This document shows, in pieces, positions 205 to 11,338 of a stretch of DNA of 12,398 bases. The notes beneath the pieces were generated by a model. That model ran no database searches. It worked only from the letters and a program-made list of their open reading frames with translations, and was not told the origin of the DNA. The position numbers and the translations under genes were made by a program. Every line of letters starts with the position of its first letter. Position 1 is the stretch's first letter. The DNA lies in the NCBI GenBank assembly GCA_946479615.1, contig CAMLGR010000138.1:1-12398 (forward strand). Direction: 5' to 3'. The DNA comes from an uncultured Bacteroidota bacterium (lineage in GTDB: Bacteria > Bacteroidota > Bacteroidia > Chitinophagales > Chitinophagaceae).

Positions 205-2175
205 ATGCTCAAAAGGTATAAAATTCCTAAAACGATTTTATGGGTCATCAGCCTGTTCCTGATCTTTTTATTAATTTTTACATTATTCCGCCTGGCTACT
301 TATCTCGCGTTTAAACCACGGGATTTTTCTTTGGGTGAGCTGTTGCCTTCTTTTTTGATGGGATTGCGGTATGATATGCGCTGGATATCGATCGTATTGT
401 TGCCGATCGTACTCCTCAGTATGTTTCCACGTTTATCGCCGTTTTATTCGGCCCGGAATAAAAAGTGGTGGACATGGTACCTGGCGATCCTTACATTTAT
501 CATCTTCTTTTTCTTCGCTGCTGATTTTGGTAATTTTTCTTATAACCAAACACGTCTCGATGCCGGCGCTATGAATTTTGTGGAAGATCCCCGCATATCC
601 TGGCAGATGATGTGGCAAACCTACCCGATGATCTGGATGATACTGGGATTGCTGGTCACGGTATGGTTTTTTCGCTGGATGTATCATAAAAGTCACTGGC
701 GGGTGATCAACCAGACCGACGGACTGGGAATCCCTTATCGCCGCAAGCATTTTATTATTACTGCGATCGTACTGGCAGTTTTTATCTATGGTACTTTATC
801 ATGGCCGCCATTGAGCCGCAAGGATAGTTTCCGTTTCCGTGATAGTTTTAAATCCTTTTTAGCGATCAATCCTTTACAGAATTTCTTTACAACGCTTCGT
901 TTCCGTCACCCGGAGTATAATGAACAAAAAGCAAGAGCTGCCTTCCCATTGATGAAAGAATGGATGCAATGGCCGCAGCAGAATGATTTTTCTTATCAAC
1001 GGTTGATATCGCCGGGTAGCAGCGCTATTGAAAGCCGTCCGAATATCGTACTGGTGATGTGTGAATCGTTCAGTATGTATAAAAGCAGCATGAGCGGCAA
1101 CCCGATGAACACAACGCCTTTTTTTGATTCGTTATCGAGAAACGGAATCTTTTTTAATCGTTGTTTCTCCCCTCATTTTTCTACTGCACGTGGATTGTTT
1201 GCCATTGTAACAGGTATACCGGATGCCCAGATGTTCCGGTTTTCCACGCGTAACCCGCTGGCTTTGTCGCAGCATACCATCATTAATAATTTTGAAGGGT
1301 ATGATAAACATTATTTTCTGGGCGGTAATCCCGAGTTCAATAATTTCAAAGGACTGTTGACCAATATCAACGACCTGCAGATGCATACAGAGGGTAGTTT
1401 TAAATCACCCAGGATCAATGTATGGGGCATCAGTGATAAGAATCTTTTCCTGGAAGCGAATAATGTATTCAAACAGGAGAACAAACCTTTCTTTGCCATT
1501 GTACAGACATCGGATAATCACCGGCCATACATGATACCGGAAGGCGATTCAGATTTTCATCGCATCACGGTAACGGATGAGGAACTGGATAAGTATGGGT
1601 TTGAATCATTGGATGAATTCAATACGTTCCGGTATTCCGATTATTGTTTTAAGACATTTATCAGGGCGGCAGAGAAAGAAGAATATTTCCATAATACCAT
1701 TTTTGTTTTTGTCGGCGATCATGGAGTAGCTGGTAATGCTTCCCAAATGTATCCTTCCGCCTGGACGGATCAGCGCCTGACTGATGAACACGTACCGCTA
1801 TTATTTTATGCTCCTTATTTATTAAAACCACAGCAACACCAGGAAGTAGTGTCGCAGATAGATGTATTGCCAACGATTGCAGGAATGTTGCAACAGCCTT
1901 ATGTCAATACCACGCTGGGTCGCGATCTGCTTGATCCATTCAAGAAAAATAACTTTGCTTTCGTTACCAATACAGCAGGTAAGATTGGTGTGGTGACCGA
2001 TGATTTTTATTTTATTACAAACCTTGATTTTCCTGACGAACAAATGGTTCCCGTCCGTTACAGTGACCGCAGCTATACCAAATCACAACGCGATTCCGTC
2101 CAGCAGCAACTCTCCAAATTCACCTCCGCCTTTTATGAAACTGCGAGGTATATGCTGATGAATAATAAGAAGTGA
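205..2175 (+). CDS. LTA synthase family / sulfatase-fold membrane enzyme (putative phosphoglycerol or phosphoethanolamine transferase)
   Basis: This is a 656-residue inner-membrane protein with five predicted transmembrane helices (about 11-35, 57-75, 89-108, 139-158, 182-200), followed by an alkaline-phosphatase-fold periplasmic domain from about residue 278. Family landmarks are visible. NIVLVMCESFS carries the metal ligand Glu287. FSTARG carries Thr327, the expected nucleophile. WGISDKN lies at 407-413, SDNHRPY at 436-442, the metal site GDHG at 504-507, and DEHVPLLFY supplies His529. Length and architecture match LtaS-type proteins. Gram-negative Bacteroidota are not known for lipoteichoic acid, so the acceptor is probably a glycan, lipid or periplasmic glucan; that part is inference. 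The ATG at 205 follows a region without a Shine-Dalgarno, and helix 1 starts soon after it. The gene converges on the methyltransferase gene and ends just before a perfect hairpin. Confidence 0.85.
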   Translation: MLKRYKIPKTILWVISLFLIFLLIFTLFRLATYLAFKPRDFSLGELLPSFLMGLRYDMRWISIVLLPIVLLSMFPRLSPFYSARNKKWWTWYLAILTFIIFFFFAADFGNFSYNQTRLDAGAMNFVEDPRISWQMMWQTYPMIWMILGLLVTVWFFRWMYHKSHWRVINQTDGLGIPYRRKHFIITAIVLAVFIYGTLSWPPLSRKDSFRFRDSFKSFLAINPLQNFFTTLRFRHPEYNEQKARAAFPLMKEWMQWPQQNDFSYQRLISPGSSAIESRPNIVLVMCESFSMYKSSMSGNPMNTTPFFDSLSRNGIFFNRCFSPHFSTARGLFAIVTGIPDAQMFRFSTRNPLALSQHTIINNFEGYDKHYFLGGNPEFNNFKGLLTNINDLQMHTEGSFKSPRINVWGISDKNLFLEANNVFKQENKPFFAIVQTSDNHRPYMIPEGDSDFHRITVTDEELDKYGFESLDEFNTFRYSDYCFKTFIRAAEKEEYFHNTIFVFVGDHGVAGNASQMYPSAWTDQRLTDEHVPLLFYAPYLLKPQQHQEVVSQIDVLPTIAGMLQQPYVNTTLGRDLLDPFKKNNFAFVTNTAGKIGVVTDDFYFITNLDFPDEQMVPVRYSDRSYTKSQRDSVQQQLSKFTSAFYETARYMLMNNKK

Positions 2176-2212: not shown

Positions 2213-3028
2213 CTATGTCAGCGGATCGCTTTTCCTCCCATCGCTATACAATCTCGTAGTGGTTTCTTCCGGTTCGTTGCTTTTTTTACGGGCAATGATG
2301 ATCAGGCGGGGTGCTTTTTTGATATTATAATCGCCTAGTTGATAATCGCCGTACACTTCCTGTACCTGCAACGATTGATAGCTTAGCATATCTGTAAAAT
2401 CCCCGAGAGAAAACTTGGCTACTTTTTCGGTGAAACTGAGTGGTTCTTTAAGAGAAGGATCAGCGATCGTTATTTTTTTATAGAAATGAGCGGCATCATC
2501 CCAGCGATGAATATCGTAGACAGTGTCACCAATTTTTTTGACTTCATTATGCACCAGGTGATCTTCGGCATAATGCATATTGAGATAATCAATCACAAAA
2601 ATACCACCTGGTTTCAGGCTGCCCCCGATGGTGCGGATCGCATCATCATGTTCACGACGGGTCCTGAAATAACCGAAGCTGGTGAAAAAATTGAAGGCAT
2701 AATTGAAATAATTGATCCAGAAAGGCAGGCGCAGATCGTGTACAAAAAAATGCAACCGTTCCGTTTCATCCTTTTTTGCATACGAGATGCTGTCAGGCGA
2801 AAGATCGACCCCGGTTACATCAAATCCCAGTGCAGTAAGTATTTTGCTGTGACGGCCACGGCCGCAGGCTGCATCCAGCATACGGCTGCCATGCGGGGGC
2901 TGTAAACGCCGGACCAGTTTATGAATAAAATCCCTGGCCTCCTGCTCATCCCTTTCAAAATATAATTTGTGATAAAAAGGAGAGCTAAACCATTCCCGGT
3001 ACCAGTCATGTGATAACACATCATTCAT
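2213..3028 (-). CDS. Class I SAM-dependent methyltransferase
   Basis: This is a 271-residue cytosolic Rossmann-fold methyltransferase. Motif I is LDAACGRGRHS at residues 51-61 (SAM-binding glycine loop). Motif II is VTGVDLS at 71-77, with Asp75 expected to contact the SAM ribose. HDLR at 97-100 is the adenine-side acidic motif. A FNFFTSFGYF segment follows at 112-121, and LKPGGIFVIDYLN at 138-150 is the usual post-strand-4 motif. The first 30 residues, rich in aromatic residues (WYREWFSSPFYHKLY), resemble the substrate lid of Methyltransf_25/11-type enzymes of Bacteroidota. The substrate cannot be read from the sequence. The ATG at 3028 is the only reasonable start, because the conserved aromatic N-terminus begins about eight residues later. 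The tail from about residue 248 is polar and probably disordered. The gene stands alone, convergent with the upstream membrane enzyme and divergent from glmM. Confidence 0.85.
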   Translation of the reverse strand: MNDVLSHDWYREWFSSPFYHKLYFERDEQEARDFIHKLVRRLQPPHGSRMLDAACGRGRHSKILTALGFDVTGVDLSPDSISYAKKDETERLHFFVHDLRLPFWINYFNYAFNFFTSFGYFRTRREHDDAIRTIGGSLKPGGIFVIDYLNMHYAEDHLVHNEVKKIGDTVYDIHRWDDAAHFYKKITIADPSLKEPLSFTEKVAKFSLGDFTDMLSYQSLQVQEVYGDYQLGDYNIKKAPRLIIIARKKSNEPEETTTRLYSDGRKSDPLT

Positions 3029-3032
3029 TTAA

Positions 3033-3040
3033 CAAATGTA
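3033..3040 (-). promoter_or_regulatory. Bacteroidota -7 box of the methyltransferase gene
   Basis: On the minus strand 3040-3033 reads TACATTTG, a full match to the Bacteroidota sigma-A -7 consensus TAnnTTTG. Only four bases separate it from the ATG at 3028, so transcription would start at or within a few bases of the start codon, giving a leaderless or nearly leaderless mRNA. I found no convincing -33 TTTG at the expected distance. Confidence 0.35.
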
Positions 3041-3058
3041 AGAAGGTGAGGGGAATCG

Positions 3059-3106
3059 GATTGAGATTTTGAAATTTCCTGGTTTCCCAATTCCAAATTT
3101 CAAAAT
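3059..3106. repeat. Heptad-periodic inverted repeat in the methyltransferase/glmM divergent gap
   Basis: Segments 3066-3077 (attttgaaattt) and 3095-3106 are exact reverse complements of 12 nt around a 17-nt loop. Both arms divide into 7-nt units. The left arm gives gattgag, attttga, aatttcc from 3059. The right arm, read on the minus strand from 3106, gives attttga, aatttgg, aattggg. It lies upstream of both flanking genes, so it cannot be a terminator for either. It could be a mobile or relic repeat, or a regulatory cruciform. Confidence 0.5.
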
Positions 3107-3161
3107 GGCCCTTTAATTTCCCCTTCTGAATGTTATCCTAATAGATTGGGCCAGAATAACG

Positions 3162-3169
3162 TATTTTTG
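3162..3169 (+). promoter_or_regulatory. Possible -7 box of glmM
   Basis: TATTTTTG fits the Bacteroidota -7 consensus TAnnTTTG and lies about 85 bp before the GTG start of glmM. No clear -33 TTTG sits 19-21 bp upstream. The A/T-rich match could be chance. Confidence 0.25.
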
Positions 3170-3253
3170 TCCGATAACTACTCCGCCCAATACCGGAGGC
3201 TGCAACTTCCAATATCCTCCAACCGATAAACCTTAAACTTACAATTTTACAGC

Positions 3254-4633
3254 GTGGCATTGATTAAAAGTATTTCCGGGATCAGAGGAACGATAGGAGG
3301 AGAGCCCGGCAAAAACCTTACTCCCTTAGATGTAGTGAAATTTACCGCAGCATTTGGTACTATTATTTGCGGAAAGAAGAAGACGACGAAGATCGTCCTG
3401 GGCCGTGATGGCAGGATCAGCGGTGGCATGGTGCGCGATCTGGTCGCAAGCACACTGACCGGTCTTGGTATCGATGTGGTCGACCTGGGTCTTTCTACAA
3501 CCCCTACCGTAGAGGTAGCGGTGAAAATGGAAAATGCAGATGGTGGTATTATTCTTACCGCCAGCCATAATCCCAAAGAATGGAATGCCTTAAAACTGCT
3601 GAACGAAGAAGGTGAATTCATTTCTGCCGAAGCCGGTGAAAAAGTACTGGAACTGGCAGAGAAAAATGATTTCAGGTTTGCCCCGGTCGATAAACTGGGT
3701 GCTCTTACTATCGATGATAGTTATATGCAAAAGCATATCGATGCTATTCTGGCTTACCCGCTTGTAAATACAGAAAAAATCACCGCCAGGAATTATAAAG
3801 TAGTTGTTGATGCTATTAATTCCACCGGTGCCACATTTGTACCGGCTTTATTAAAAGCATTGGGTGTAGAAAATGTGATTATATTGAATGGAGAGGTCAA
3901 TGGTAAATTCGCACACAATCCCGAACCATTACCCGATCATCTTACCCAGTTGAGCAATGAAGTGGTCAAGCAAAAAGCTGACCTGGGAATTGCCGTCGAT
4001 CCTGATGTGGACAGGTTATGTTTTGTCTGCGAGGATGGAAGCATGTTTGGTGAAGAATATACACTCGTAGCGGTAGCCGATTATATTTTAAGTAATAAAA
4101 AGGGGAATACGGTTAGTAATATGAGCAGTACCAAGGCCCTCAAAGAAATTACTTTAAAACATGGTGCTGAATATTTCCCTTCTGCTGTTGGTGAAGTGAA
4201 TGTAGTGACTAAAATGAAAGCGGTGAATGCCGTGATCGGTGGCGAAGGCAATGGAGGTATTATCGTTCCTGATTTCCATTATGGCCGTGATGCACTTATC
4301 GGCATTGCATTATTCCTTAGTCACCTGGCCAACCATAAGAATGGGTTGCGTTCTTTCCGTACCCGCTATCCTGATTATTTTATTTCCAAGAATAAAATCG
4401 AACTGGAGAAGGATATCGATGTAAAAGAGGTGTTTGAAAAGATCAGGCAGAAATACCAGAAGAACCCGGTCAATACAGAAGACGGGTTAAAAATAGAATT
4501 TGATAATGATTGGGTGCATCTCCGCACTTCCAATACAGAGCCGATCATCCGCATTTATGCCGAAAGTGATTTTGAATCGAAGGCGAATAATATTGCGACG
4601 AGGTTGATGCAGGATATCAAAGAGTTCTCATAA
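3254..4633 (+). CDS. glmM: Phosphoglucosamine mutase (alpha-D-phosphohexomutase family)
   Basis: This is a 459-residue cytosolic enzyme expected to convert glucosamine-6-phosphate to glucosamine-1-phosphate, the step before UDP-GlcNAc in peptidoglycan and LPS synthesis. The four family sites are present in order. The phosphoserine loop LTASHNP has Ser104. The Mg2+ loop DPDVDR spans 249-254. The sugar-binding loop is GEGNGG at 330-335. The phosphate-binding loop RTSNTEP spans 424-430. The GEGNGG loop, in place of the GEMSGH of proteobacterial GlmM, is the form I associate with the archaeal-like branch used by Bacteroidota. Phosphomannomutase or phosphoglucomutase activity cannot be excluded on sequence alone. 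The start is GTG: the family N-terminus (ALIKSISGIRG) follows at once and the next in-frame Met is residue 59. There is no Shine-Dalgarno. The gene is transcribed alone. Confidence 0.88.
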   Translation: MALIKSISGIRGTIGGEPGKNLTPLDVVKFTAAFGTIICGKKKTTKIVLGRDGRISGGMVRDLVASTLTGLGIDVVDLGLSTTPTVEVAVKMENADGGIILTASHNPKEWNALKLLNEEGEFISAEAGEKVLELAEKNDFRFAPVDKLGALTIDDSYMQKHIDAILAYPLVNTEKITARNYKVVVDAINSTGATFVPALLKALGVENVIILNGEVNGKFAHNPEPLPDHLTQLSNEVVKQKADLGIAVDPDVDRLCFVCEDGSMFGEEYTLVAVADYILSNKKGNTVSNMSSTKALKEITLKHGAEYFPSAVGEVNVVTKMKAVNAVIGGEGNGGIIVPDFHYGRDALIGIALFLSHLANHKNGLRSFRTRYPDYFISKNKIELEKDIDVKEVFEKIRQKYQKNPVNTEDGLKIEFDNDWVHLRTSNTEPIIRIYAESDFESKANNIATRLMQDIKEFS

Positions 4634-4653: not shown

Positions 4654-4821
4654 TTGAACAGTAGAACACGGATAGAAGTGGATGGATGTTATATTGATTG
4701 CTCCAAATTTTATTGTTTGATTATGATCAGCCCGCGGGTTTAACCGCGGGCGAAAGCATCGTTTACAATAATATCACCATAACATCCGTCCATCCATTTC
4801 TATCCGTGTTCTACTGTTCAA
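4654..4821. repeat. Long inverted repeat with GC-rich palindromic core downstream of glmM
   Basis: The 311-bp gap between glmM and the desulfurase gene is dominated by this element. The outer arms are 4654-4692 and 4779-4821. The first 24 nt of the left arm match the right arm exactly as reverse complement (ttgaacagtagaa and onward). After one mismatch the match resumes through tggatgg and then atgttat, with a 4-nt insertion in the right arm. The centre holds a second hairpin, gcccgcgg (4730-4737) against ccgcgggc (4744-4751) around a 6-nt loop; it is strikingly GC-rich for this A/T-rich gap. The nested symmetry resembles a MITE or REP-type element. Whether copies exist elsewhere cannot be seen here. 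No convincing gene lies inside; the open frame crossing it just reads the palindrome. Confidence 0.75.
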
Positions 4822-4944: not shown

Positions 4945-6069
4945 ATGACCCGAATTTATCTCGATAATGCCGCTACTACGCCGCTGGATAAGGAAGTGCT
5001 GGATACCATGCTGCCTTATATGACTACCCATTTTGGAAATCCATCTTCGATCTATTCTTATGGGCGCGAAACCAGGCTGGCGATCGAGACGGCCAGGAAA
5101 TCCGTGGCCAAACAACTGAATGCTCACCCGGGTGAGATCTTCTTTACAAGCGGGGGTACCGAAAGCAATAATACGGCTATCGTTTCTGCGATCCGTGACC
5201 TGGGTTGTAAACATATTATCACATCACCGGTAGAGCATCATGCCGTACTTCATACCGTAGAACATTATGGTTGTGGGGACGGGGTGACTTCCAGTTTTGT
5301 GAAATTGCTGCCGAATGGCCAGGTAGACCTGAAAGACCTGGAGGCACAGCTTGGCTCGCACAAGGAGCGTTGCCTGGTTTCGCTGATGCATGCGAATAAC
5401 GAAGTAGGGAACCTGCTGCCAATAAAAGCAGTTGGCGAGATCTGCCAGAAATACAATGCGATCTTTCATTCTGACTGTGTGCAAACCGTCGGTCATTACC
5501 CGATTGACCTTCGTAAACTGACCGTACATTTTATTTCAGCTGCTGGTCATAAATTTCATGGACCCAAAGGAGTAGGTATTCTTTATGTTAACGATAATGT
5601 GAAGATCAAGCCCTTTATTTTCGGGGGTGGGCAGGAGCGTAATATGAGAGCGGGTACAGAGAACCTGTATGGTATTGTCGGCTTTGCAAAAGCGCTGGAA
5701 CTGGCCATGTCGAACTATGAAAAGGACAGTGCATATATCCAGTCATTAAAGACGTATATGACGGAAAAACTCCGACAAGAGATAAAAGGTGTGCAATTCA
5801 ATGGGGATGGGCAAAGCAATTTATATACGGTACTTAGTGCTGCTTTTCCTAAAACAGAAAAATCGGAAATGATCCTCTTCAATCTCGATATAAATAACAT
5901 CTGTGTATCGGGCGGCAGCGCTTGTAGCAGCGGCGCCGATATCGGTTCGCATGTAATTCGGGCCATCAACAATAACCCCAATCTTGTTACTGTACGTTTT
6001 TCATTCAGCAAACACAATACAAAGGAAGAAATAGATGTGGTAGTGGAGAAGCTGAAGGAACTGATATAG
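4945..6069 (+). CDS. Cysteine desulfurase (NifS/IscS-like, class V aminotransferase fold)
   Basis: This is a 374-residue PLP enzyme expected to take sulfur from L-cysteine, leaving alanine and a persulfide for Fe-S cluster, thio-tRNA or other sulfur-transfer pathways. The N-terminus IYLDNAATTPLD (4-15) is typical. TSGGTESNN (68-76) binds the PLP phosphate. VEHHAV gives the ring-stacking His98. FHSDCVQ gives Asp177 and Gln180. AAGHKFHGPKG gives the Schiff-base Lys203. RAGTEN lies at 235-240. The catalytic cysteine is Cys327 in SGGSACSSG. The loop carrying Cys327 resembles the NifS/IscS side rather than SufS, but no iscU, nifU or iscA homologue is adjacent, so the sulfur acceptor is unknown. 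There is no Shine-Dalgarno. The stop codon touches a heptad repeat that continues downstream. Confidence 0.9.
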   Translation: MTRIYLDNAATTPLDKEVLDTMLPYMTTHFGNPSSIYSYGRETRLAIETARKSVAKQLNAHPGEIFFTSGGTESNNTAIVSAIRDLGCKHIITSPVEHHAVLHTVEHYGCGDGVTSSFVKLLPNGQVDLKDLEAQLGSHKERCLVSLMHANNEVGNLLPIKAVGEICQKYNAIFHSDCVQTVGHYPIDLRKLTVHFISAAGHKFHGPKGVGILYVNDNVKIKPFIFGGGQERNMRAGTENLYGIVGFAKALELAMSNYEKDSAYIQSLKTYMTEKLRQEIKGVQFNGDGQSNLYTVLSAAFPKTEKSEMILFNLDINNICVSGGSACSSGADIGSHVIRAINNNPNLVTVRFSFSKHNTKEEIDVVVEKLKELI

Positions 6070-6227
6070 TGAATGGTCAGTGGTGAGTGGTGAATAGTCA
6101 ATAGAGAATCATTAGCTTCCCTATCCATAATTTCACGAGGATTGGTACTTTCTTTCAGTACTTCAAATAATATCTGATTTGTAGTTTTTCTGCAATTTCC
6201 ACATCCCATTCACTATTCACCACTCAC
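6069..6227. repeat. Heptad-periodic inverted repeat joining the 3' ends of two convergent genes
   Basis: The left part (6069-6110) reads as six successive 7-nt units: gtgaatg, gtcagtg, gtgagtg, gtgaata, gtcaata, gagaatc. The right part (6207-6227) gives three units in opposite orientation (minus strand gtgagtg, gtgaata, gtgaatg). Segment 6083-6103 pairs with 6207-6227 as a 21-bp inverted repeat with two mismatches, including a 16-nt exact match. The left arm starts on the last base of the desulfurase stop codon, and the right arm contains the stop codon of the pspC-like gene (6224-6226). About 103 nt of non-repetitive DNA separates the arms. Transcripts of either gene could fold this into a 3'-end stem. 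Confidence 0.7.
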
Positions 6228-6445
6228 AAATAATACCACGGGTTTCTCTTCGCAGAACTCATATATCTTTTTACATTTTTCAGGAAAGCCAGCACCATAT
6301 AGATAATAATAGGGGAGCCTACGGTAAGAAGAGAGGTATAGATAAAATACTGGCGGATGCGACTGGTGGCGATTCCCATACGGTTGCCAATGGCAGAACA
6401 AACACCAAAAGCATTCCATTCAACGAAATCCTTGAATCTGTTCAT
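6224..6445 (-). CDS. Small PspC-domain membrane protein
   Basis: This is a 73-residue protein made of one PspC-like domain. FGVCSAIGNRMGI (13-25) is the helix-turn portion with the usual GVC-x-G pattern, IRQYFIYTSL (30-39) follows, and a hydrophobic segment (about 37-55, ending MVLAFLKN) would span or associate with the inner membrane. The tail is basic (KRYMSSAKRNPW). In enterobacteria PspC relays envelope stress to the psp response. Stand-alone small PspC proteins are common in Bacteroidota and their role is less defined. No pspA or pspB homologue is next to it. The ATG at 6445 is preceded by a good promoter candidate only four bases away. The stop codon lies inside a heptad repeat arm. Confidence 0.75.
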   Translation of the reverse strand: MNRFKDFVEWNAFGVCSAIGNRMGIATSRIRQYFIYTSLLTVGSPIIIYMVLAFLKNVKRYMSSAKRNPWYYL

Positions 6446-6653: not shown

Positions 6654-8930
6654 ATGGTTTTTGATCTCGACCTCATTAAGAAATTATATGCTGAAATGCC
6701 GGGTAAAGTCGCCGCCGCCCGTAAACTGGTTGGCAAGCCCCTGACACTTACTGAAAAGATTTTATACTCCCACTTGTATGCACCTGCAGCCAAACCGCAT
6801 ACAAGAGGCAAAGATTACGTGGATTTTGCACCGGACCGCGTAGCGATGCAGGATGCCACTGCGCAAATGGCCTTGTTGCAATTCATGACCTGTGGACGTG
6901 ATAAAGTAGCGGTTCCTTCCACTGTGCATTGCGATCACCTGATCCAGGCCAAAGTGGGTGCGAAGAAAGATCTTCAGCTCGCTATCGAGACCAATCGTGA
7001 AGTATATGACTTCCTGTCTTCTATTTCCAATAAATATGGTATCGGTTTCTGGAAAGCCGGTGCCGGTATCATTCACCAGGTAGTACTCGAGAATTATGCA
7101 TTTCCCGGCGGAATGATGATCGGTACAGATTCCCATACACCGAATGCCGGTGGCCTGGGTATGGTGGCCATTGGTGTTGGGGGTGCGGATGCTGTGGATG
7201 TGATGGCAGGATTGCCATGGGAACTGAAAATGCCAAAAGTTATCGGTGTAAAACTGACCGGTAAGATGAGTGGCTGGACATCCTGTAAAGATGTGATCCT
7301 TTGGGTAGCCGGGCAACTGACCGTAAAAGGTGGAACCGGTGCTATCGTGGAATATTTTGGTGAAGGTGCCGATAGTATGAGTGCTACCGGTAAAGGAACT
7401 GTTTGTAATATGGGTGCTGAGATCGGCGCTACCTGTTCCTTATTTGCGTATGATGAAAAAATGAGCGCTTACCTGCAATCGACTGGTCGCAAAGAAGTAG
7501 CAAAACTGGCAGATGGTATCAAAGAACATTTGCGTCCCGATCCTGAAGTATATGCATCACCTGAAAAATATTACGACCAGGTACTGGAACTCGATCTTGG
7601 TACACTGGAGCCGTATGTGAATGGTCCTTTTACACCGGATCTTGCCACGCCCATCTCTAAAATGGCAACTGCAGTAAAAGAAAATGGCTGGCCGGAAAAA
7701 TTGGAAGTGGCTCTCATCGGTAGCTGCACCAATTCTTCCTATGAAGATATCAGCCGTTCCGCTTCCATTGTGGAAGATGCAGTGAGCAAAGGATTAAAAG
7801 CGAATTCTGAATTTACGATCACTCCAGGCAGTGAGCAGGTTCGGTATACGATCGAAAGAGATGGATTTATCAATACGTTTGAAAAAGTAGGCGGTGTGGT
7901 ATTGGCCAATGCCTGCGGCCCCTGTATTGGTCAGTGGGCACGTCACATTGATGATCCGAACAGGAAGAACACGATCATTACTTCTTTCAATAGAAACTTC
8001 GCTAAACGTAATGATGGATTAGCTTCCACTCATGCATTTGTAGCAAGTCCCGAGATTGTTACTGCAATGGCTATTGCCGGTACGATTGCATTCAATCCCT
8101 TAACAGATAAATTAAAGAATGCAAAAGGCGAGGAAGTATTGTTGAAAGAACCAACCGGTTTTGAATTACCTCCCAAAGGTTTTGCTGTGGAAGATGCGGG
8201 CTTCCAGGCCCCGGCAGAAGACGGCAGCACCGTGAAAGTGGTCGTTGATCCGGACAGTAAACGCCTGCAATTATTAGCTGCCTTTGCTCCCTGGGAAGGA
8301 TACGATCTGCAGGCATTGAAATTATTGATCAAGGCCAAAGGAAAATGTACCACTGACCATATTTCGATGGCAGGCCCCTGGTTGAAATTCCGCGGTCACC
8401 TCGATAATATCAGTAACAACATGCTGATCGGTGCGATCAACTTTTTCAATGATCAGACTGATACCGTAAAGAACCAACTGACGGGTGAATACGGACCTGT
8501 ACCTGCTACAGCCCGTGCTTATAAAGCAGCCGGTATCGGCAGTGTGGTGGTAGGTGATGAGAACTATGGTGAAGGTTCATCCCGCGAACACGCAGCGATG
8601 GAACCACGTCACCTTGGTGTTCGTGCCATCCTGGTAAGAAGTTTTGCGCGGATACACGAGACCAACCTGAAAAAACAGGGTATGCTGGCATTGACATTCG
8701 ATAACAAAACGGATTATGATAAAGTGCAGGAAGATGATAGTATCGATATTAATGGCCTGATCAACTTTGCACCGGGTACGCCATTGACAGTGGACCTGAA
8801 CCATAAAGATGGTACAGTGGATACGATCACAGTGAACCATACCTATAATGAACAACAGATCGAATGGTTCAAGGCAGGTGGTGCACTCAATGTGATCCGT
8901 GCTGAAGTAGCCAAAAAACAGACGAGCTGA
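6654..8930 (+). CDS. Aconitate hydratase, mitochondrial-type
   Basis: This is a 758-residue cytosolic [4Fe-4S] enzyme of the TCA cycle that isomerises citrate to isocitrate through cis-aconitate. The cluster ligands are visible: Cys358 in [10 protein letters not shown], and Cys421 and Cys424 in [22 protein letters not shown] (157-169) holds active-site residues. In the C-terminal swivel domain [12 protein letters not shown] (641-652) holds the catalytic serine region, and [13 protein letters not shown] (664-676) the substrate arginine region. Length and motif spacing match the mitochondrial aconitase branch common in Bacteroidota, not bacterial AcnA (about 890 aa) or AcnB. I chose the ATG at 6654; an in-frame TTG at 6648 would add only Met-His, and homologues as I recall them begin near MVFD. 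There is no Shine-Dalgarno. The gene is monocistronic with a terminator at 8957-8985. Confidence 0.93.
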
Positions 8931-8956: not shown

Positions 8957-8985
8957 AAAATTCGCAATCGAAAATTGCGAATTTT
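8957..8985 (+). terminator. Intrinsic terminator of the aconitase gene
   Basis: Arm 8957-8968 (aaaattcgcaat) pairs perfectly with 8974-8985, giving a 12-bp stem with the 5-nt loop cgaaa. A T-rich tract continues to about 8993. It begins 27 bp after the aconitase stop codon. The A run before and T run after also allow weaker function on the opposite strand. Confidence 0.8.
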
Positions 8986-9840: not shown

Positions 9841-10698
9841 ATGTCAACAAAAAAATCAAAAAGAAACCTGCCTGTTTTCGAACAAATAAAACAAGCAGAT
9901 GAGAATGGAAATGAATTTTGGTCAGCAAGAGATCTGGCTAAAGTGCTTGAGTATTCTGAATACCGACATTTCTTACCGGTAATTGAAAAAGCAAAAGAAG
10001 CCTGTAAGAATAGTGGTCAGGCAGTCGAGGATCATTTCGAGCACCTGCTCGGAATGATCGAACTTGGAAAAGGGGCATTACGAAAAGTTGAAAATGTAAG
10101 ACTGTCTAGATATGCCTGTTATCTGATTGTCCAAAATGCTGATCCTAATAAAGAAGTAGTGGCATTGGGGCAAACTTATTTTGCTGTACAAACACGAATA
10201 CAGGAAATACAGCAACTCGATGCTTATAACAGGCTTAATACAGAATTGGAGAAAAGATTGTTTCTAAGGGATGAAATGAAAACGCATAATATTCATTTGG
10301 CTAAAGCTGCAAAAAATGCAGGAGTAGCGACCCCGTTTGATTATGCCATTTTTCAGAATCACGGATATAAAGGTTTGTATGGAGGTCTTGATGCCAAAGG
10401 AATTCATTCCAAAAAGCGTCTGAAGAAGAAAGAAAATATTCTGGATCACATGGGTAGTGCAGAATTGGCGGCTAACCTGTTTCGCACTACACAAACAGAA
10501 GAGAAATTACGCAAAGAGAATATCCAGGGAAAACAAAAAGCGAACCAGGCGCATTATGAGGTAGGAAAGAAAGTACGGAAAACGATAGAAGAAATTGGTG
10601 GCACAATGCCGGAAAACCTGCCGGTTGCCGATAGTATTAAGGAACTGCATAAAAAAGAGACGCCCAGGAAAATAAGAGGCATAAAAAAGAAAAAATAA
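9841..10698 (+). CDS. dinD: DNA-damage-inducible protein D-like (BRO-N domain)
   Basis: This is a 285-residue protein that matches DinD in length (about 274 aa in E. coli) and layout. A BRO-N/antirepressor-type domain occupies about residues 10-122 (FWSARDLAKVLEYSEYRHF, then LSRYACYLIVQNADPNKEVVALGQTYFAVQTR). A charged linker follows, then a C-terminal region with the GYKGLYGGLDAKGI block and a TMPENLPVADSIKELHKK block (255-272). It ends in a very basic lysine/arginine tail. E. coli DinD is SOS-induced and has been reported to inhibit RecA-mediated strand exchange. Homologues are scattered, often in mobile or accessory DNA. No E. coli-type LexA box is visible upstream. A strong Shine-Dalgarno and A-rich codon use set it apart from its neighbours, consistent with transfer. 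No partner gene of a toxin-antitoxin or phage module is adjacent. Confidence 0.85.
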   Translation: MSTKKSKRNLPVFEQIKQADENGNEFWSARDLAKVLEYSEYRHFLPVIEKAKEACKNSGQAVEDHFEHLLGMIELGKGALRKVENVRLSRYACYLIVQNADPNKEVVALGQTYFAVQTRIQEIQQLDAYNRLNTELEKRLFLRDEMKTHNIHLAKAAKNAGVATPFDYAIFQNHGYKGLYGGLDAKGIHSKKRLKKKENILDHMGSAELAANLFRTTQTEEKLRKENIQGKQKANQAHYEVGKKVRKTIEEIGGTMPENLPVADSIKELHKKETPRKIRGIKKKK

Positions 10699-11105: not shown

Positions 11106-11207
11106 CTATGGCCAAGAAAGATCCTCCAGTTCTTCGGTGGGTTGCCAGTTTTCAAAACAGCAACTTCCCGGGGATACGTAAGGGTCCTGATCAGAGCCAT
11201 TAATCAT
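11106..11207 (-). CDS. Possible 33-residue micro-ORF
   Basis: A minus-strand ORF runs from ATG (11207-11205) to TAG (11108-11106). The peptide is acidic, with a vicinal cysteine pair and two tryptophans (SPGSCCFENWQPTEELE). The composition is more protein-like than the overlapping plus-strand frame, which is basic and histidine-rich. An AAGG lies a few bases before the ATG. I recognise no family, and the length gives little statistical support. Confidence 0.22.
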   Translation of the reverse strand: MINGSDQDPYVSPGSCCFENWQPTEELEDLSWP

Positions 11208-11338
11208 TAAACCTTATCGCACTCTGGCGGAAGCCAGCAGGATGTCTCGTGTCATTCATGGCATGTAACAGCCTGATCTGATTTGATGCGCCGGTATTTC
11301 GGTGACAGATTATTATTGAAAATTAAAAAGGTTTACTG

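Follow-up and report, generated by a model that had tools for sequence, protein, structure and literature searches.

An excess of heptamer repeats has been reported since 2007, when, as cited in two later papers (PMC4679880, PMC4692102), Mrazek et al. found heptanucleotides to be the most abundant class of long simple sequence repeats in most genomes and tied slippage to the length of DNA held by the polymerase; the available parts of these two papers give no established function. The heptamers GGGAATC in Xanthomonas and GGGGA(C/T)T in Nostoc have the same polarity relative to genes as the arrays described below, and divergent gaps are under-represented among their locations. Inverted heptamer pairs number 70 and 75 in two Xanthomonas genomes and are few in Nostoc; the authors found no function and considered quadruplexes (Rehm et al. 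2015, PMC4692102), which have so far been a main structural idea for G-rich heptamers. Intergenic arrays of TAACTGA have also been described in five Bacteroidetes, in some of them beside other heptamers (MacGregor 2015, PMC4679880). The P6b stem-loop of the Nostoc trnL intron is composed of 7-nt motifs, the classes of which have replaced each other several times while the structure stayed similar (PMC4476775), and inverted repeats 50–80 bp after stops, mostly with 4–5-nt spacers, have been reported across bacterial phyla (PMC13155455).

Here, we focus on a window, namely the whole stretch of 12,398 nucleotides that was analysed. It has its affinities with Chitinophagaceae; the cysteine desulfurase-like protein encoded in it reaches up to 86% identity to Terrimonas genomes and MAGs. 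An earlier note had claimed that four of its gaps carry inverted repeats parsed into 7-nt units, unrelated in sequence from site to site. The features concerned are the following.

8–33, unstranded: site 1 left arm, TACTGAA/TACAGTA type, period 7; inverted repeat 8–33/86–111
86–111, unstranded: site 1 right arm; tandem repeat at 87–111, period 7
205–2175, plus strand: sulfatase-family gene, left neighbour of site 2
2178–2192, unstranded: site 2 left arm, TAATTCA units; inverted repeat and tandem repeat
2196–2210, unstranded: site 2 right arm; inverted repeat
2213–3028, minus strand: methyltransferase-like gene, right neighbour of site 2
3066–3077, unstranded: site 3 left arm, in the divergent gap 3029–3253
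3095–3106, unstranded: site 3 right arm, C-rich side
3254–4633, plus strand: phosphoglucomutase/phosphomannomutase-family gene, probably glmM-like
4654–4698, plus strand: fifth hairpin, left arm, G-rich
4773–4821, plus strand: fifth hairpin, right arm, C-rich
4945–6069, plus strand: cysteine desulfurase-like gene (Aminotran_5; the finer name is putative), query for the related loci
6066–6102, plus strand: site 4 left array, G-rich, GTGAATG/GTGAGTG
6206–6227, minus strand: site 4 right array, C-rich
6224–6445, minus strand: 73-aa PspC-domain gene (25.2 bits, cut-off 25), convergent partner of site 4

A repeat search of the window returned inverted repeats at 8–19/93–104, 2178–2192/2196–2210, 3066–3077/3095–3106 and 6083–6102/6208–6227, and Tandem Repeats Finder gave period-7 entries at 87–111, 2181–2199, 6069–6093 and 6206–6227, with no such entry at site 3. 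When each of the four gaps was compared with 400 exact dinucleotide shuffles of itself, the best lag-7 score was matched by none of the 400 at any site, and lags 5, 6, 8 and 9 were matched by at least 17 (the lowest count being that of lag 8 at site 3). The inverted-repeat score was matched by 0, 0, 9 and 0 of 400 shuffles at sites 1 to 4, respectively, site 3, with its 12-nt A/T-rich arms, being the weakest inverted repeat. The four inverted repeats of 7-nt units are thus borne out, and a purely A/T-driven resemblance of the arms is rejected by the shuffles, least firmly at site 3.

Two of the sites lie between convergent genes. Site 2 is flanked by genes that end at 2175 (plus) and 2213 (minus). 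The left array of site 4 starts at the TAG that ends the cysteine desulfurase-like gene; on the other side, the array overlaps the stop codon (TGA, 6224–6226) of the minus-strand PspC-like gene. Because this gene of 73 aa ends at 6224, the stretch 6066–6227 lies between two convergent stop codons. The RNA fold of 6060–6240 has a free energy of −43.7 kcal/mol (z −3.3, none of 200 shuffles as good). The strongest hairpin of the window, 4654–4698/4773–4821 (RNA −94.6 kcal/mol, z −12.0), had been left out of the earlier list of sites. This hairpin starts 21 nt past the end of the glmM-like gene, is 168 nt long, near-perfect and of G-first polarity, and has at most a weak period of 8 (21 of 400 shuffles); its loop holds a G+C-rich palindrome, GCCCGCGGGTTTAACCGCGGGC, at 4730–4751, which resembles a nested REP-type element. 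Rfam gave no match in the window at gathering scores. An ordinary intrinsic terminator-like hairpin with a T-tract, at 8957–8985 after the aconitase gene, provides a contrasting case. The otherwise housekeeping stretch also contains a gene at 9841–10698 with a Bro-N domain, presumably the N-terminus of a phage-type antirepressor, followed by a 929-nt gap in which no gene was called.

The repeat period was surveyed in a related set of 80 loci (1.36 Mb) obtained from one scan with the cysteine desulfurase-like query, by counting intergenic arrays that score at least 9 against the mean of three first-order shuffles. Lag 7 gave 127 arrays against 5.7 in shuffled gaps, lag 8 gave 62 against 4.7, and lag 9 gave 10 against 7.0, while lags 4, 5 and 6 were without excess (3, 2 and 6 arrays against 12.0, 11.3 and 8.7). 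The counts at lags 10 to 13 were 6, 7, 7 and 5 (6.7, 5.3, 3.7 and 3.0 shuffled), and lags 14, 16 and 21 are accounted for as multiples. In the gaps of these loci, the shuffles are also exceeded at lags 18, 19, 20 and 22 (17, 13, 7 and 9 against 7.7, 2.0, 1.7 and 2.7). Hairpins with arms of at least 14 nt numbered 97 in the 80 loci and the window, in a scan that covered gaps up to 900 nt, or below about 700 nt in the two large genome pieces introduced below (G007, G010) and in 4-kb loci of the phylum. Their arms reached a lag-7 score of at least 6 in 20 of the 97, against 0.8 expected from shuffled arms, with 12 at lag 8 (1.2 expected), 3 at lag 9 (1.0) and the other lags at expectation. From the excesses in gaps and arms alike, the period is therefore 7–8 nt, sometimes 9, with a sharp lower limit. 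The predicted predominance of period 7 holds against shuffles and against period 6 (127 arrays against 6); against period 8, itself in excess, it amounts to only about twofold, so that a period of 7 alone is too narrow a description.

Several arrays depart from the simple pattern. Strong period-9 arrays (GTTGATTGA), the period being a multiple of three, occur in stop-to-stop hairpins at 2568–2675 and 5117–5247 of locus L010, and weaker lag-9 arrays are found in G007 and G010. Hairpins at 3173–3362 of L056 and 11134–11278 of L010 consist of phrases like ACACGGAT and CGCAAAGACGC at uneven spacings of 8–9 nt; such phrases occur in many environmental genomes. Elsewhere in the phylum (40 stretches from 39 other genomes), lag 7 at score 9 gave only 12 arrays against 8 shuffled, so a phylum-wide excess is rejected. 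At score 10 there were 18 arrays of lag 7–9, confined to 9 of the 40 stretches. Given the weak lag-7 excess in these 40 stretches, the trait is therefore patchy. One 50-kb stretch of E. coli K-12 had no lag-7 or lag-8 array.

For the position of arrays relative to genes, the set was enlarged by 400 kb from each of two array-rich genomes, G007 and G010, to 2.18 Mb, 86% of it coding. Genes were called as longest open frames or by a hexamer model, by which small genes, the window's PspC gene among them, are missed; array counts cover gaps of 15 to 1000 nt and stop-adjacency counts gaps of at least 50 nt, and the counts pool loci, among which orthologous gaps are not independent. The enlarged set contained 348 arrays (235 of lag 7, 91 of lag 8 and 22 of lag 9) in 206 of 1289 gaps, 108 of these 206 with a single detected array. 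The loci with arrays include those of two cultured relatives, Niastella yeongjuensis DSM 17621 (L042) and Terrimonas ferruginea DSM 30193 (L015). Array density is 2.97 per kb in convergent gaps, 1.29 in tandem and 0.77 in divergent gaps. As the earlier note had proposed to check, arrays are indeed placed relative to gene ends: 77 of 342 convergent stops have an array at a distance of 25 nt or less, against 62 of 627 tandem stops (Fisher p 1.7e-7), although tandem gaps include operon-internal ones, in which the array rate may be low for other reasons. For starts, the corresponding counts are 32 of 627 in tandem gaps and 13 of 572 in divergent gaps. Arrays at both ends occur in 27 of 171 convergent gaps, against 8.7 expected. 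Sense-G-rich arrays in tandem gaps begin a median of 5 nt past the stop, 54 of 77 of them within 25 nt, against 17.7 by random placement. Some hairpins reach from stop to stop, such as 11122–11212 in the gap 11123–11213 of L030 and 7503–7567 in the gap 7500–7569 of L006, and site 4 of the window belongs to this type. What is new here is that in this group of bacteria, from soil and water, arrays mark gene boundaries, abutting stop codons, above all between convergent genes.

The stop codons themselves differ. TAA is the stop of 34% of the 146 array-adjoining genes, against 58% of 1472 others, and stop triplets are enriched 1.51-fold on the sense strand of stop-adjacent arrays (1.43-fold without arrays that overlap the stop), compared with 1.04-fold on their antisense strand and 1.17- and 1.18-fold on the G-strand of other arrays. 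This pattern fits arrays that grow into the gene end and then supply the stop codon. Supply of stop codons as the purpose of the arrays was set aside, the triplet enrichment being more simply read as arrays overwriting gene ends.

Arrays also obey a rule of base composition: on either strand, G predominates in the 5' array and C in the 3' array, so that the G-rich strand points away from the gene. After omission of 51 of the 348 arrays with |G−C| below 2, the rule by gap position is obeyed by 248 of 297 arrays and broken by 49. In convergent gaps, arrays at the left stop are G-rich in 37 cases and C-rich in 4, and those at the right stop C-rich in 45 and G-rich in 5. Divergent gaps follow the same polarity (left side G 20, C 3; right side C 26, G 6; 46 of 55 arrays in all). 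Single arrays obey it too, those of tandem gaps being mostly G-rich near the stop (G 25, C 6) and C-rich near the start (C 20, G 3), and a hidden partner was found for 31 of 83 single arrays tested, against 7.5 by chance, 29 of the 31 in accordance with the rule. The exact pattern G then C occurs in 50 gaps and C then G in one, in L003, which belongs to the set orthologous to site 2; site 2 itself is neutral in polarity. Counted by source (loci, the two genome pieces and the window), 37 of 44 with a polar array have a majority for the rule, 4 against it and 3 are even, two genomes possibly being counted twice. The polar arrays in the other stretches of the phylum (score 10, lag 7–9) obey it in 14 of 15 cases.

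A general base skew was rejected as the cause of polarity after stops, where the first 20 nt have a skew of 0.00 in array-free gaps against +0.37; before starts, array-free gaps show a general lack of G (skew −0.17), and there it may be responsible in part. A weaker RNA–DNA hybrid at the 3' arm was likewise considered and set aside: by approximate calculation, the hybrid is weaker at that arm in 43 of 65 pairs, but the difference is small (−1.25 against −1.36 kcal per dinucleotide).

Polarity is not the same thing as pairing. Among 69 gaps with both a G-rich and a C-rich array, complementarity is at least 0.6 in 25 and below 0.3 in another 25. Same-gap pairs exceed different-gap pairs clearly in G007 (median complementarity 0.60 against 0.22) and barely in G010 (0.24 against 0.16). 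Since complementarity is weak in many pairs, polarity is more general than the hairpin. The arms of 29 hairpins picked for complementarity (of 30 periodic ones, one with unequal arms being omitted) are 0.93 identical in register and on average 0.77 one unit off, a difference that is partly built in because the best register was chosen. A shifted register is equal or better at L043 7020, L034 19098 and L034 10, and irregular positions are clearly common to both arms in L056, L003 3514, L010 11134 and L030 11122. The loops of the 30 periodic hairpins measure 2–149 nt.

Sequence turns over faster than period. Site 2 (2176–2212) is one of 22 orthologous convergent gaps, 11 of which have arrays, with periods of 7, 8 and 9 and different units; 7 others are without arrays and 4 fall outside the size limits. 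When both members of a convergent pair have arrays, no unit is common to 49 of 54 pairs at less than 70% identity and to 10 of 16 at 80% or more; for array gaps drawn at random from different genomes, a common unit occurs in 3.7% of cases. The number of both-array convergent pairs is that of independence (54 against 56.4 below 70% identity, 16 against 15.6 at 80% or more), so that inheritance of position beyond the class rate was rejected for convergent gaps; it is seen at 80% or more in tandem (34 against 20.6) and divergent gaps (12 against 4.0). Within a genome, unit families recur: AGTGGTG, AATCGTG, AACAAGG, AATGAGTG and others in G007, and ACGGCAG, AATGGGC and AAACGTG in G010. The description of the repeats as sequence-unrelated therefore stands insofar as the period outlives the sequence, orthologous gaps usually having different units, and fails insofar as units recur within a genome and the stretch 6060–6235 has BLAST matches in 6 of 10 relatives. 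The earlier note had thus made a real observation and stated its main feature nearly right.

Canonical intrinsic terminators, counted by a simple definition in gaps of 30–500 nt, are scarce where arrays are present. They occur in 39 of 125 convergent gaps without an array, 5 of 29 with other arrays and 2 of 25 with a G/C pair; the corresponding figures for tandem gaps are 77 of 550, 5 of 71 and 0 of 26. Pooled over both classes, 2 of 51 G/C-pair gaps, 10 of 100 other-array gaps and 116 of 675 array-free gaps have a terminator (p 0.0097, pair against no array). With stratification by genome, class and length bin, 2 terminators were seen in G/C-pair gaps against 6.7 expected (a count as low arose in 0.0055 of 4000 permutations) and 12 in all 151 array gaps against 20.5 (0.001 of permutations). 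A mere genome effect is rejected, array-free gaps having terminators in 69 of 363 cases in pair-bearing genomes and in 47 of 312 in others. Read by eye, the desulfurase-like gene is followed by an ordinary terminator in L028, L029, L041 and L072 and by a periodic hairpin in L027, L030 and L021, the gene beyond this gap differing among the compared loci. The 3' arm is not followed by a T-tract (T content 3.32 per 10 nt, against 3.23 in mid-gap), and the 5' arm of canonical terminators has more C than G in 97 cases, more G than C in 54 and equal numbers in 28, which is opposite to the polarity of the arrays. A replacement of the terminator would therefore be one of role and not of mechanism.

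The observed basis for an explanation is thus the period of 7–9 nt, the position at stops, the convergent bias, the polarity, the turnover of units and the scarcity of terminators. The account that we tentatively favour, though we give it somewhat less than an even chance, is that slippage-born arrays are kept at gene ends as 3'-end hairpins and are candidate substitutes for terminators. The arrays would originate by tandem duplication or slippage in intergenic DNA, with a lower limit near 7 nt, and fold-back (template-switch) copying may have produced those arms that are close inverted copies; slippage plus template switching gives a good account of the origin of the arrays. Retention would be favoured mainly at two places, right after stops and between convergent genes, since there the RNA of either gene would end in a long hairpin. 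Such a hairpin, in place of an intrinsic terminator, could limit read-through into the opposing gene, block 3'-to-5' exonucleases, or both. Several observations count against a role at the 3' end: the missing T-tract, the long loops and the polarity opposite to that of canonical terminators; the many G/C pairs that are not hairpins and the 108 of 206 gaps with a single array; the arrays in divergent gaps, at 0.77 per kb, with the same polarity in 46 of 55; and the distant convergent orthologues, which have arrays in both no oftener than the class rate.

It is also possible, if less probable, that the arrays are a neutral by-product: slippage and template switching would make 7–9-nt arrays and inverted copies anywhere, and these would persist in the least vulnerable places, just past stop codons and between convergent genes. 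Mismatch repair deals efficiently with loops of 1–3 nt, and template switching can perfect imperfect inverted repeats (PMC4060949). The turnover of units, which extends to 10 of the 16 both-array convergent pairs at 80% identity or more, agrees with such an origin, as do the many single arrays, the 25 of 69 pairs with little complementarity, the intrusion of arrays into gene ends by as much as 12 nt, the limit of the search, and the lower array density in divergent gaps and before starts. Neutrality alone, however, does not predict the G/C polarity, which is absent after stops in array-free gaps (0.00 against +0.37), nor the scarcity of terminators that survives stratification by genome, class and length, nor the 2.6-fold odds of convergent over tandem stops.

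Rho-dependent or antisense control is an unlikely alternative to the 3'-end hairpin. The C-rich, G-poor 3' arm would act as a rut site against read-through or antisense transcription, with no hairpin needed; rut sites are C-rich, and by the polarity rule either convergent gene, read in its own sense, has a C-rich array downstream of it (C 45, G 5 at the right stop), also in gaps whose arrays lack complementarity. In paired arms, however, the C-rich arm would be locked in a stem, and the polarity is the same ahead of starts, a position in which a rut site should be harmful to the gene. More speculative still, and held at a rather lower level of belief, are 'register' terminators, a class that would be defined by repeat period and not by sequence. 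The RNA–DNA hybrid behind the active site of the polymerase comprises about 7–9 nt of RNA, and because the period of the arms is about this length, the nascent hairpin might shift along by a unit at every step and pair anew against the polymerase. On this improbable scheme, any sequence would work if period, symmetry and G-first polarity were kept, and the principle would hold for Bacteroidota, Xanthomonas and Nostoc alike.

A MITE- or REP-like mobile element with heptad-repeat ends that inserts at stop codons is very unlikely. The convergent genes are, as read by eye, about 7 nt apart in L003, about 11 nt in L015 and 154 nt in the window; families of units recur within a genome, and 19 of 46 loops have some match elsewhere; among the matches listed for these 19, most come from one long stretch of L034, and two loops within a single gap of L006 are similar to one another (82% over 38 nt). 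For the other 27 of the 46 loops, the 2.18 Mb contain no second copy, which counts against a mobile core common to the loops, and arm sequence and period vary between sites, with no Rfam match in the window. A G-quadruplex function, as considered for the G-rich heptamers of Xanthomonas and Nostoc, which share the polarity and the inverted pairs (PMC4692102), is scarcely credible here, for only 4 of 297 polar arrays fit a G3+ pattern and 57 a loose G2+ pattern, and since arrays without any GG obey the rule (80 of 97), quadruplexes do not explain the polarity and are rejected as its general cause.

Compared with known systems, the arrays resemble intrinsic terminators in forming a stem-loop after the stop codon and between convergent genes, and differ from them in the lack of a T-tract, the long loops, the tandem-repeat arms and the opposite G/C polarity. 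Their closest counterparts are the repeats of Xanthomonas and Nostoc (PMC4692102), which share tandem 7-nt intergenic units, polarity and inverted pairs in convergent orientation; here the units are not GGGNATC or GGGGAYT and are mostly not quadruplex-capable, periods of 8 and 9 also occur, there are several unit families per genome, and arrays abut stops. The TAACTGA system (PMC4679880) consists of one unit in direct repeat, which in the main genome is mostly found immediately before starts; one indirect repeat is reported for that genome. Mrazek et al. (2007), as cited in the parts available of these two papers, make no mention of hairpins, polarity or stop codons, and the P6b hairpins of Nostoc trnL (PMC4476775) lie within one group I intron, while the arrays here lie at gene ends. 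The earlier note knew of no Bacteroidota counterpart that forms hairpins; heptamers in Bacteroidetes (PMC4679880) and inverted pairs in Xanthomonas (PMC4692102) had in fact been published, and it is hairpins of this kind in Chitinophagaceae, and the same polarity in units unable to form quadruplexes, that were not found in the open-licence literature. The arrays thus belong with the heptamer repeats already described, whose range of period, sequence and phylum they extend, and for which they add a link to stops, convergent genes and missing terminators. Non-quadruplex units and units of period 8 show the same polarity and position, in another phylum, with terminators scarce in the same gaps, and this turns an old heptamer curiosity into a direct question, namely whether such structures end or protect transcripts.
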